From assembly GCA_022826585.1 (NCBI GenBank), contig JAJDUR010000018.1, positions 1 through 38,893 on the forward strand: a stretch of DNA of 38,893 nucleotides. The letters are read 5' to 3'. Below are positions 22,462 to 24,328 of the stretch, piece by piece; positions within the stretch are counted from its first letter, which is position 1; each line of letters starts with the position of its first letter. A program made the position numbers and the translations under genes. The notes below the pieces were generated by a model. The model had not been told where the DNA came from and searched no databases. It saw only the letters and a program-made list of their open reading frames with translations. The stretch comes from Dehalococcoidia bacterium (GTDB lineage Bacteria > Chloroflexota > Dehalococcoidia > Tepidiformales > Tepidiformaceae).

Positions 22462-22650
22462 ATGGCGGACTTCGGTGGCGGTTTCGTCCCGCCGAATCCC
22501 GGCCCGGAGCTGGAAATGTTGGCTCGGGCCCAGCAGGACGAGATTCAGCGCAAGCACGGCGGCGACAACCGCCCCCCGAGACGCCCGCGAGGCCCGCGCT
22601 TCGGCCTGCTGCGCCGCATCGCGCGCCTTATCCGCGGCGGCGGCGACTAG
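22462..22650 (+). CDS. Small array protein 1 (RFGLLRRIARLIRG tail)
   Basis: A 62-residue protein of no known family, first of four tandem genes with a shared C-terminus. The N-terminal part (MADFGGGFVPPNPGPELEML) is unlike the others beyond the opening M-A-x-F-G-G-G-F. A basic Pro-rich hinge (RPPRRPRGP) follows, then RFGLLRRIARLIRGGGD. This tail forms a clear amphipathic cationic helix with Phe, Leu, Ile and Ala on one face and Arg on the other, which suggests membrane binding or a docking tag. GGAGG lies seven bases upstream of ATG. Confidence 0.7.
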   Translation: MADFGGGFVPPNPGPELEMLARAQQDEIQRKHGGDNRPPRRPRGPRFGLLRRIARLIRGGGD

Positions 22651-22681
22651 CCGCCGGCTACAGGGGAAGGGGAGTCAGGAA

Positions 22682-22864
22682 ATGGCGGAGTTCGGAGGAG
22701 GGTTTGACCCGGTTGAGTTCAGGGTCCGCGCCGAGAAGGCGGAGCGCGAGCTGGCTCTGAACGATGCCGAGGCGCGCCGCGGGAGAGCCGCTCGGGCTGT
22801 CCCGCGCCCCCGCTTCGGCCTGCTGCGCCGCATCGCGCGCCTAATCCGCGGCGGCGGGGACTAG
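22682..22864 (+). CDS. Small array protein 2 (RFGLLRRIARLIRG tail)
   Basis: A 60-residue paralogue. Its N-terminus (MAEFGGGFDPVEFRVRAEKA) shares only the first eight positions with protein 1; the middle is a charged helix (EKAERELALNDAEARRGRAA), and the tail is PRFGLLRRIARLIRGGGD. ATG 22682 follows GGGGAAGGGGAGTCAGGAA. The open frame upstream overlaps gene 1 and is not used. The gap to gene 1 is 31 bases, so they are probably cotranscribed. Confidence 0.7.
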   Translation: MAEFGGGFDPVEFRVRAEKAERELALNDAEARRGRAARAVPRPRFGLLRRIARLIRGGGD

Positions 22865-22901
22865 CGCTCAGCCGGGCACGATCGAAGGAGGAGGTCCCTG
22901 A

Positions 22902-23102
22902 ATGGGTGGTAGGGGCACGATTCCGCCCTTTGGACATGGCGCCGGTTCACCTTTCGGCGACGAAGCTGGCGCCGTGCGGCTGGCCGGGCTGGAGTCGCGG
23001 CGCCGGAGGCAGGGCGGCAACCGCTCCCCGAAGCGCCCCCGGGGTCCGCGCTTCGGCCTGCTGCGCCGCATCGCGCGCCTTATCCGCGGCCGTGGCGATT
23101 AG
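22902..23102 (+). CDS. Small array protein 3 (RFGLLRRIARLIRG tail)
   Basis: A 66-residue paralogue. The N-terminus is Gly-rich (MGGRGTIPPFGHGAGSPFG), then a Leu/Arg-rich stretch (RLAGLESRRRRQGG) and PKRPRGP lead into RFGLLRRIARLIRGRGD, the only tail with Arg in place of a Gly. A very strong binding site (GAAGGAGGAGG) lies before the ATG. It starts 37 bases after gene 2. No function is known. Confidence 0.7.
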   Translation: MGGRGTIPPFGHGAGSPFGDEAGAVRLAGLESRRRRQGGNRSPKRPRGPRFGLLRRIARLIRGRGD

Positions 23103-23150
23103 CCTCCCGGTCTGCCCCGCCGGGCTACAGTAGAAGGAGAGGGTTCCCCC

Positions 23151-23330
23151 GTGAATGAGGATGGCTTCCTTGCCCCGCCCCCACCGCCGGAGGACTTCGG
23201 TACCCTGCGGCACGAGTTGGCGCAGCGGCGAGAGCAGCAGGGTGGGCACAGGCCACCCAGGCGCCCGAAGGGCCCGCGCTTCGGCCTGCTGAGGCGCATC
23301 GCGCGGCTCATTCGCGGCGGCGGGGACTAG
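23151..23330 (+). CDS. Small array protein 4 (RFGLLRRIARLIRG tail)
   Basis: A 59-residue paralogue starting at GTG 23151 after GAAGGAGAGGG. Its N-terminus (MNEDGFLAPPPPPEDFGTLR) is Pro-rich and unlike the others; a charged segment HELAQRREQQGGHRPPRRPKGP precedes RFGLLRRIARLIRGGGD. The tail is encoded with several synonymous changes relative to genes 1-3, so it diverged earlier yet kept the peptide. A TACAGT lies 20 bases before the start and may be an extra promoter. Confidence 0.65.
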   Translation: MNEDGFLAPPPPPEDFGTLRHELAQRREQQGGHRPPRRPKGPRFGLLRRIARLIRGGGD

Positions 23331-23418
23331 CCGGGGAGCGAGCACCGACACGGGCTACGCGGGGGCGGGCATCCTGCTGTCTGGGCGCCCGAACCGGGAT
23401 TCCCGACCAGGAGGAAGG

Positions 23419-23637
23419 ATGGGGACTTTTGGTGGAAATCCTGACGTAGACCACGCGGCCAGAAAGGCCAGTCAAGATATCCAGAAGGCGATCAACCCCC
23501 ATCGAGCCCCGCACAGGACCCCCAACCTGGGCCCCAGCCCTGAGATGAAGGAAGCCCAGCGTCGCTACGAGCAGGAGAACCGCTCCCGCATCCGCTGGCT
23601 GTTCAAGCTGGGGGAGTGGATCAACAGGCACTCCTAG
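23419..23637 (+). CDS. Small array protein 5 (FGGNPDVDHAA family)
   Basis: A 72-residue protein of unknown family. It starts MGTFGGNPDVDHAARKASQD, continues through a conserved INPHRAP and LGP-x-x-EMKEAQRRYEQEN, and ends RSRIRWLFKLGEWINRHS. The end is a Trp/Phe/Lys/Arg-rich helix comparable in place and character to the tails of proteins 1-4. The opening M-x-x-F-G-G also recalls proteins 1 and 2. AGGAGGAAGG directly precedes the ATG. It is 88 bases after gene 4, and its leader shares CCCGACCAGGAGG with gene 6. Confidence 0.72.
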   Translation: MGTFGGNPDVDHAARKASQDIQKAINPHRAPHRTPNLGPSPEMKEAQRRYEQENRSRIRWLFKLGEWINRHS

Positions 23638-23638
23638 G

Positions 23639-23676
23639 GTCCTGCCGGGGAAGCCAGGCCCAGTCGCCGGCAGGAC
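23639..23676 (+). terminator. Hairpin between array genes 5 and 6
   Basis: GTCCTGCCGG (23639-23648) and CCGGCAGGAC (23667-23676) are perfect 10-bp arms with an 18-base loop, just after the stop of gene 5. No U-run follows. TAGGAT at 23681-23686, right after it, could be the -10 of gene 6, so this may divide the array into two transcripts. Confidence 0.5.
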
Positions 23677-23712
23677 GCGGTAGGATGCAGCTACCCGACC
23701 AGGAGGGCTGGC

Positions 23713-23931
23713 ATGGGCTTCTTTGGCGGAAATCCTGACGTGGACCATGCAGCAGACAGGGCCAGTCGGCAGATCCAGAAAGCGGTAAACCCGCATCGGG
23801 CGCCCGACGGCGTCCCCGACCTGGGCCCCGGCTCTGAGATGAAGGAAGCGCGCCGGCGCTACGAGCAGGAGAACCCCTCCCGTTTCCGCTGGCTGTTCAA
23901 GCTCGGGGAGTGGATCAGCAGACACTCCTAG
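23713..23931 (+). CDS. Small array protein 6 (FGGNPDVDHAA family)
   Basis: A 72-residue paralogue of protein 5, about three quarters identical by eye and without gaps. The strongest identity is at both ends (FGGNPDVDHAA and WLFKLGEW-I-x-RHS) and in EMKEA-x-RRYEQEN. Differences cluster in the middle. The leader CCCGACCAGGAGG is shared with gene 5. It ends 4 bases before gene 7. The terminal helix RFRWLFKLGEWISRHS again suggests an interface with membranes or a partner. Confidence 0.72.
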   Translation: MGFFGGNPDVDHAADRASRQIQKAVNPHRAPDGVPDLGPGSEMKEARRRYEQENPSRFRWLFKLGEWISRHS

Positions 23932-23935
23932 CGTC

Positions 23936-24328
23936 ATGGCAGACCAACAGCGACCACCTCCCGGCGATGACGTCGCCGCCCAGATCGGGCGCTCCCTTGG
24001 ACGCCTCGTGCGCAAGGCCCACGACGCCGCCCTCGAGGCCCAGCCCGAGGCCGAGCTCCATGCCCGCCGCGCCGCGAAGGTCGCGAAGGAGACAGTCGAG
24101 GCAGCCCGCCCCGAGGCCGAACGCATCGCGCACGACGCCATCGAGGCCGCCCGCCCCGCCGCCGAGCAGGCGGCGAAGTACGTCCGTGAGCACGAGGACG
24201 AGATCCGGCAGGTCGGGAGCGTCGCCGGCGAGGCCATCGCCTGGAGGGTGCTGCCGCGGCCCCTGCGCCCCTTCCTCGGTAGCGCCGTCGGGAAGCTGTT
24301 CCGCCCGAAGCCCCCGAAGGAGTCCTGA
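23936..24328 (+). CDS. Ala/Glu-rich helical protein at the end of the array
   Basis: A 130-residue protein, probably one long amphipathic helix bundle. Repeats of about 11 residues rich in A, E and R (HARRAAKVAKETVEAARPEA, ERIAHDAIEAARPAAEQAAK) resemble apolipoprotein or LEA-like helices. The C-terminus LPRPLRPFLGSAVGKLFRPK is basic and amphipathic, like the other array proteins. The ATG is four bases after gene 6 and lacks its own clear binding site, so translation is probably coupled. A membrane- or lipid-surface role is inference. Confidence 0.68.
   Translation: MADQQRPPPGDDVAAQIGRSLGRLVRKAHDAALEAQPEAELHARRAAKVAKETVEAARPEAERIAHDAIEAARPAAEQAAKYVREHEDEIRQVGSVAGEAIAWRVLPRPLRPFLGSAVGKLFRPKPPKES

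Follow-up and report, generated by a model that had tools for sequence, protein, structure and literature searches.

A stretch of 38,893 nucleotides from a Dehalococcoidia bacterium of the family Tepidiformaceae (GCA_022826585.1, contig JAJDUR010000018.1; hereafter, the window) carries an array of seven small genes at positions 22462-24328. An initial annotation, made from the sequence alone, had placed seven same-strand genes here, and all are present at these positions on the + strand. Judged by sequence comparison, the array is a real and undescribed gene family at the level of one genus, with an unusual amplified layout in which a constant C-terminal helix (the tail) stands behind diverging N-terminal parts (the fronts). 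A plausible mechanism is that these are small cytosolic proteins held at the membrane by their cationic amphipathic helix, with the diverged fronts touching different partners; we give this function a probability of about 0.45, somewhat short of an even chance. The window makes up contig C98 of its 2.7 Mb genome (127 contigs, 93.67% complete, 5.14% contaminated), which is designated G000 among the nine draft genomes of the genus that were compared (G000-G008).

Genes 1 to 4 share the tail RFGLLRRIARLIRG, identical in all four over 14 of 14 residues, as had been claimed. Gene 1 (type N1; 22462-22650, +) encodes 62 amino acids (aa) and has an orthologue in eight of the nine genomes; its cationic amphipathic tail, with the coding segment RFGLLRRIARLIRGGGD at 22597-22647 (+), includes a predicted helix at residues 46-58. 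The same tail is found in gene 2 (22682-22864, +; 60 aa), probably a diverged N2, in gene 3 (type N3; 22902-23102, +; 66 aa), which has a GRGD end and orthologues in G003, G004 and G007, and in gene 4 (23151-23330, +; 59 aa, GTG start), possibly a diverged N4. Genes 5 (23419-23637, +) and 6 (23713-23931, +), both of type W, are indeed 72-residue paralogues with 78% identity, and the tail of gene 5 is RIRWLFKLGEWINRHS. Gene 7 (23936-24328, +) encodes a 130 aa protein rich in Ala, Glu and Arg with a predicted long helix at residues 9-85, in keeping with its first description as an Ala/Glu-rich helical protein. The M-x-x-FGG start ascribed to several members occurs in four of the seven, and genes 1-6 have a purine-rich ribosome-binding sequence ahead of the start, that of gene 2 being AAGG only.

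The terminal helix, proposed at the outset as the core feature, is the most constant part of the family and is cationic and amphipathic. It spans approximately 13-16 residues, with Leu, Ile, Val and Phe on one face and Arg on the other, and in N-type proteins the common part often extends to a basic linker before it, HRPPKRPRGP or a near variant. The tail proteins are short (54-76 aa) and Arg-rich, occur in 1-6 copies in each of eight genomes, and have a positive net charge in 29 of 30 cases. Tails of the W type and of an intermediate type, W2, are rich in Trp, Leu and Phe, and the charge of their best window is no more than +1 to +2. For protein 1, AlphaFold2 predicted helices at residues 15-32 and 46-58, with block values of the predicted local distance difference test (pLDDT) of 66-77 for the latter. 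Two tails carry a four-residue insertion, about one helical turn; over the best stretch of 13 residues, their hydrophobic moments still reach 0.57 and 0.70.

Tail searches covered 148 genomes, with up to 43 first-look candidates scored per genome, and a wider profile was run against 393 genomes of the class (the nine of the genus and 384 others; up to 15 per genome); because a limited number of candidates was scored per genome, weak distant relatives may have been missed. The profile of genes 1-4 gave strong matches in eight of the nine genus genomes, G000-G007, and none in G008. In the 148-genome search, 30 genomes outside the genus matched at E<=0.1 (best 0.0024), and we take these matches as chance. 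The wider profile recovered the same eight genomes and, outside the genus, only matches at E 0.005 and 0.008 within frames of 943 and 406 aa; longer frames gave the tail profile only weak matches, such as that of a 624 aa frame in G001 (E 0.012). A profile search of the window's own genome found no convincing further copy of the tail, and the N1 gene is present in seven metagenome-assembled genome records of GTDB.

Reading of the loci gave 30 tail genes in the eight genomes (22 N, 6 W and 2 W2), distributed over G000-G007 as 6, 5, 3, 4, 5, 1, 2 and 4. Profile matches to the W type were strong in G000, G001, G002, G004 and G007 and weaker in G006 (E 4.4e-5), with no match in G003, G005 or G008. 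The apparent start of an extra N gene without a tail was seen by eye in G002. Away from the array, elsewhere on the same contig, G006 carries a stray tail fragment, RPPKGPRGARFGLLRRIL, with the usual end missing (locus L099, contig C13:221623-221724, -). It is possibly the relic of a moved copy; the reading frame preceding it is, we presume, dephospho-CoA-kinase-like.

The array genes are mostly under purifying selection, with whole-gene ratios of nonsynonymous to synonymous substitution rates (dN/dS) of 0.2-0.4. The ratio for N1 is 0.27 over 28 pairs (0.29 in the N-terminus, 0.23 in the tail); N3 has 0.28, N2 and N4 have 0.30 and 0.28 (one pair each), the six W genes 0.37 and protein 7 0.26. 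Among genes 1-4 of the window (six pairs), the tails differ by 6 nonsynonymous and 27 synonymous changes, the N-terminal parts by 236 and 110. These tail counts, the dN/dS values and the conservation across the genus are the reasons why the array is not a product of chance, and chance open reading frames were rejected as an explanation on the strength of the latter two. Gap-free alignment is possible for 20 of the 22 N tails; for these, DNA identity is 0.857 within genomes, 0.856 for the same type across genomes and 0.830 for tails sharing neither, and the within-genome excess was equalled in 17 (DNA) and 74 (protein) of 10000 permutations. Either gene conversion or a partner common to the copies would suffice to explain this small effect.

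The fronts of genes 1-4 had been called unrelated, which does not hold: a weak, above-shuffle similarity to the ancestral N1 front remains. With tail and linker removed and z values derived from composition-preserving shuffles of short sequences, so that the values are modest, the mean z against N1 is 5.3 for N2 together with gene 2, 4.0 for N4, 3.3 for N8, 2.4 for N3 and 2.1 for gene 4; against the types to which they are assigned, gene 2 reaches 3.5 (N2) and gene 4 a weak 1.9 (N4). Because most N-type fronts weakly resemble the ancestral gene, we regard the array mainly as one tandem-amplified family rather than as a tag on varied cargoes, and take genes 1-4 with their relatives to be a single family whose constraint is uneven along its length; the gene-family part of this account is well supported. 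Arrays that keep the tail behind different N-termini, which the initial annotation had proposed to look for, were seen in related species. The order N1, N2, N3 or N8, N4 is common to G001, G003 and, provided that genes 2 and 4 represent diverged N2 and N4 copies, G000. Exchange of N-termini between unrelated cargoes was considered as a source of the diversity and was rejected in view of the residual N1 similarity and the single-gene basal state. Genes 5 and 6 probably form a branch of the N-type family that has diverged further, and their link to it is less firm. It consists of shared location, the FGG start of some members and the W2 protein of G004, which in single comparisons has a match to gene 6 at E 3e-12 and a weak one to the gene 3 tail at E 4e-4.

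In a tree of a ClpC-like protein, G005 falls outside the other eight members of the genus (support 99), and G008 comes next to branch, followed by G006, with low support (56 and 45). The basal G005 has one tail gene, N1, beside a shortened protein 7, and seven others have 2-6. The contig of G008 begins within a gene for an oxygenase that we take from its sequence to be Rieske-type (the first 42 residues are present); protein 7 lies no more than approximately 90 nucleotides (nt) further on with an N1-type box before it, and profile searches and reading found no tail gene at this locus or elsewhere in the genome. The simplest reading of this history would be an ancestral pair of N1 and protein 7, amplified to 2-6 genes in the others, with G008 having lost its tail genes; it is based on one gene tree, with a second gain as an alternative.

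Most N genes look individually promoted, since 18 of 22 have a -10-like box of the pattern TANAGT in the 45 nt before the start (shuffle expectation 0.27), at 15-19 nt in 17 of them and at 6 nt in G005. The pattern is found before none of the eight W or W2 genes, one of nine protein 7 genes (that of G008) and none of 66 further genes from these stretches. The 66 were long frames with codon bias, an ATG start and a ribosome site; many are mutual orthologues, and this also holds for many of the 22. In the window, the box before gene 1 is GCTAGAGTGA (22437-22446, +), its hexamer ending 17 nt ahead of the start codon, and that before gene 4 is GCTACAGTAG (23124-23133, +), which fits the pattern. 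Gene 2 is preceded by an imperfect box, TACAGG (22659-22664, +), that lies outside the counted pattern. By eye, the W genes have a different common upstream sequence near CCCGACCAGGAGG.

In all eight genomes with tail genes, the gene immediately following the last of them encodes protein 7. The protein is present in all nine genus genomes, with weaker relatives in 18 of the 384 others (3 of the same family, 15 in the rest of the class). AlphaFold2 predicted one long helix of 77 residues (9-85) with good local confidence from only seven close sequences. The protein has an internal repeat with a 45-nt spacing, and the charge of the long helix is -2 to 0 in eight genomes and +6 in the shortened G005 form. 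Matches to curated models stayed below threshold, the best being E 0.0077 in NCBIfam (16.8 bits against a cut-off of 120) and E 0.0037 in Pfam for one of nine members. In its Ala/Glu/Arg-rich long helix with an internal repeat it is reminiscent of phasin, perilipin or LEA-like proteins with long amphipathic helices.

The suggestion that the family is undescribed is upheld: the tail genes have no convincing model match in Pfam, NCBIfam, PHROG or PADLOC, and the tail, which might have turned up solely as part of some known and unrelated family, matches none and is conserved in the genus. Below E 0.07, PHROG gave nothing for the window's seven genes, and none of their proteins matched the anti-phage defence models of PADLOC at E<=0.1. 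Viral contigs held no relatives of the N1 and protein 7 alignments, and phages and plasmids none of gene 1, the one tail gene searched there (genes 2-6 were not). A phage, plasmid or defence origin was therefore rejected for want of any viral, phage, plasmid (both gene 1 only), PHROG or PADLOC match. The profile of the tail family (22 N and 1 W2) found nothing in the PDB at E<=1, no Rfam family reached threshold in the window, and in the open-licence PMC literature we found no report of the tail sequence or of small-protein arrays with a variable N-terminus and a constant C-terminus.

The closest functional parallel, by analogy, would be the DUF1127 group (YjiS, the Agrobacterium SDPs and CcaF1), which passages of two reports describe as short, Arg-rich and often present in several copies per genome in alphaproteobacteria (PMC11707872, PMC12501420). 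According to the same passages, YjiS is found in the inner-membrane fraction and released by high salt, a behavior ascribed to an amphipathic helix (PMC11707872), and DUF1127 proteins bind the sensor kinase PhoR and, in the case of CcaF1, RNA (PMC12501420). The tail proteins are likewise small, Arg-rich and multicopy; however, the helix of YjiS is N-terminal and that of the array proteins C-terminal, the phylum is different, and the array is in tandem, mostly with individual boxes. At E<=1, the DUF1127 profile of Pfam matched none of the window's seven genes, none of 23 members of the family (22 N, 1 W2) and none of a second set of eight (6 W, 2 W2).

In the mechanism we favor, an ancestral single N1 gene beside protein 7 would have been duplicated in tandem, usually with its own promoter-like box, to give the 1-6 tail genes per genome. 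The C-terminal helix would be kept constant by purifying selection, perhaps with gene conversion, and the N-terminal halves would diverge and become fixed as orthologous types. The helix would lie in the inner leaflet of the cytoplasmic membrane, with Arg facing anionic lipid and the hydrophobic face buried, and so concentrate all copies on one surface. There, the basic Pro-rich linker and the diverged fronts may contact different membrane proteins and tune what these do, in the manner of DUF1127 proteins acting on sensor kinases, and protein 7 may coat or organize the same surface. Of the possible uses of the tail, in-plane membrane binding appears the most likely because of its hydrophobic and Arg faces, the four-residue inserts, the Trp/Phe-rich W tails and the lack of detected shell genes; both this use and an action of the fronts on different membrane partners are inferences. 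A fuller version, in which one Tepidiformaceae genus would use individually promoted tandem proteins with a co-evolving helix as one address for many heads, the heads setting different membrane activities, copy number varying by species and protein 7 organizing the surface, is doubtful as a whole.

Several observations weigh against this picture. The AlphaFold2 model of protein 1 is of low confidence (pLDDT 63.6, predicted template modeling score 0.24). The 13-residue moment of the window's N-type tail, 0.568, is equalled by 9% of same-letter shuffles, and full-helix moments are equalled by 13% and 2% of shuffles for the two inserted tails and by 20% for the window's W tails. RNA is a further known target of Arg-rich helices. 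As to the family and its history, the fronts of N6, W and W2 stay below a mean z of 1.5 against N1, and a profile comparison of the W and N tails, with W2 rows included on the W side, is in register but has a probability of 2% (E 0.022). Two N6 genes have TTG or CTG starts and are the least certain of the tail genes; both of them, and genes 2 and 3 of the window, make up the 4 of 22 N-type genes without an exact TANAGT. Tail dN/dS is 0.58 in the single N2 pair, from six differences, and 0.37 among the paralogues of G003, and homogenization is modest, since same-type tails across genomes match those within genomes. Finally, adjacency is the sole link of protein 7 to the tails: a profile comparison between them finds nothing, and no tail gene was recognized in six neighborhoods of protein 7 relatives outside the genus, one of which has only 222 nt upstream.

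The same features can be read in other ways. The proteins might be regulators binding nucleic acid or ribosomes, with the Arg-rich helix and the R/P-rich linker on RNA and the fronts recruiting different factors; the almost uniformly positive net charge and the RNA interaction given for CcaF1 in part of PMC12501420 would fit, but the wide conserved hydrophobic face would be unneeded for RNA binding alone and the W and W2 tails have little charge, which makes this reading unlikely. Somewhat less likely again is a role of the tail as a docking peptide, its helices packing on the long helix of protein 7 as a scaffold. The conservation of protein 7 and its constant place after the last tail gene would be expected from such a pairing, but G008 has protein 7 and no tail gene that we could find, and the near-neutral protein 7 helix offers no obvious acidic partner. 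A set of secreted or self-inserting antimicrobial peptides, bacteriocin-like, is improbable. Here the tail composition resembles that of membrane-active peptides, the copies are diversified, and an 804 aa protein with a metallopeptidase-like motif adjoins the array in G000 and G002; the other genomes lack this neighbor at the locus, the regular flanks being the Rieske-type oxygenase and an acyl-CoA dehydrogenase, and no transporter or immunity gene was recognized beside the array by eye. The leader expected of ribosomally synthesized and post-translationally modified peptides is not seen either, as the conserved part is C-terminal and the N-terminus variable and without a leader-like conserved segment, and the N-termini are under purifying selection.

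Two further readings, both highly improbable, concern known tag systems. Pup and UBact are modifiers of approximately 60 aa with a disordered front, a helix and a Gly-rich C-terminus, and the array proteins are similar to them in size and layout, with a C-terminal IRGGGD in 21 of 22 N-type proteins and IRGRGD in the remaining one. However, Pup is acidic and these proteins are basic, the six W proteins end without GG, and the Pup ligase PF03136, detected in one control genome, was found in none of the nine genus drafts, for which reason a Pup-type modifier was rejected. The idea hardest to credit is that the tails load cargo into an encapsulin or a bacterial microcompartment (BMC). Encapsulation peptides are short terminal amphipathic helices behind flexible linkers, as the tail is, but encapsulin PF04454 and BMC PF00936 were found in 0 of 9 draft genomes of the genus each, with positive controls detected, no enzyme cargo was seen and no longer reading frame has a convincing tail; the encapsulin or BMC tag was likewise discarded. 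The cargo tag for one scaffold put forward in the initial annotation is thus not supported, as in addition the N-type copies look like tandem duplicates.

Inner-membrane binding by the tail helix is the reading we favor, and the locus is of interest beyond it. It offers a readable natural history, in which a basal single-gene state gave way to amplification and probably to one secondary loss, the helix staying constant next to N-termini that diverge, and the arrays are natural variants with which the roles of helix and head in a small protein could be separated. Annotation of small proteins is poor, and bin names such as IRC, APA and SB06 seem to place several of these bacteria in marine sponge microbiomes, although a literature search for one bin name found no paper; for the first two reasons, metatranscriptomic and metaproteomic work would have a concrete target in the conserved amplified locus. 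According to a passage in PMC10284905, Tepidiformaceae are prevalent in marine sponges.

The array is flanked by the genes for the Rieske-type oxygenase and the acyl-CoA dehydrogenase, both on the opposite strand, in seven of the eight genomes with tail genes; in the G005 stretch, the Rieske gene is present and the acyl-CoA dehydrogenase was not found. The latter gene, identified by Pfam (24342-25565, - in the window), adjoins protein 7 in eight of the nine genomes. Upstream, the 804 aa protein (19984-22398, -), context rather than a family member, is a putative lipoprotein with a Cys after an Ala/Leu-rich start, a Pro/Thr-rich stretch and an HExxH-like motif, HETAH; it has no above-cut-off match in Pfam or NCBIfam, and of the nine stretches compared, G000 and G002 alone have its gene at this place, flanked by the Rieske gene and the array. 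In G005 (locus L089), a gene approximately 360 nt downstream of the protein 7 start encodes a 199 aa protein with a match at E 1e-4 to PHROG 399, a structural protein of the head and packaging class. Strong matches to it were found in eight of the nine genus genomes, on other contigs outside G005, and none in G008; since its relatives lie elsewhere in seven genomes, a prophage context for the array was rejected and the adjacency in G005 looks like a local rearrangement. The gene itself is possibly a conserved phage-derived or gene-transfer-agent-like gene.

Elsewhere in the window, two paralogues that we presume to be Rieske-type oxygenases (18576-19853, -, and 30408-31688, -) are 76% identical, and a copy with 75-78% identity occurs in six of the nine stretches. 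Three paralogous luciferase-like genes, presumably of the F420/FMN monooxygenase type, lie in tandem at 15594-18475 (-). A repeat of the GTGGTCGGTGGCTA type is found at 26030-26069, followed by a 53 aa reading frame (26100-26261, +) with an antitoxin-like C-terminal end, LEVYDSLEEFKVAFER, which is perhaps RelB-like. Intergenic heptamer repeats, TGTTGGC and CCAACAG, stand in opposite orientation approximately 100 nt apart at 27105-27135 and 27228-27258.

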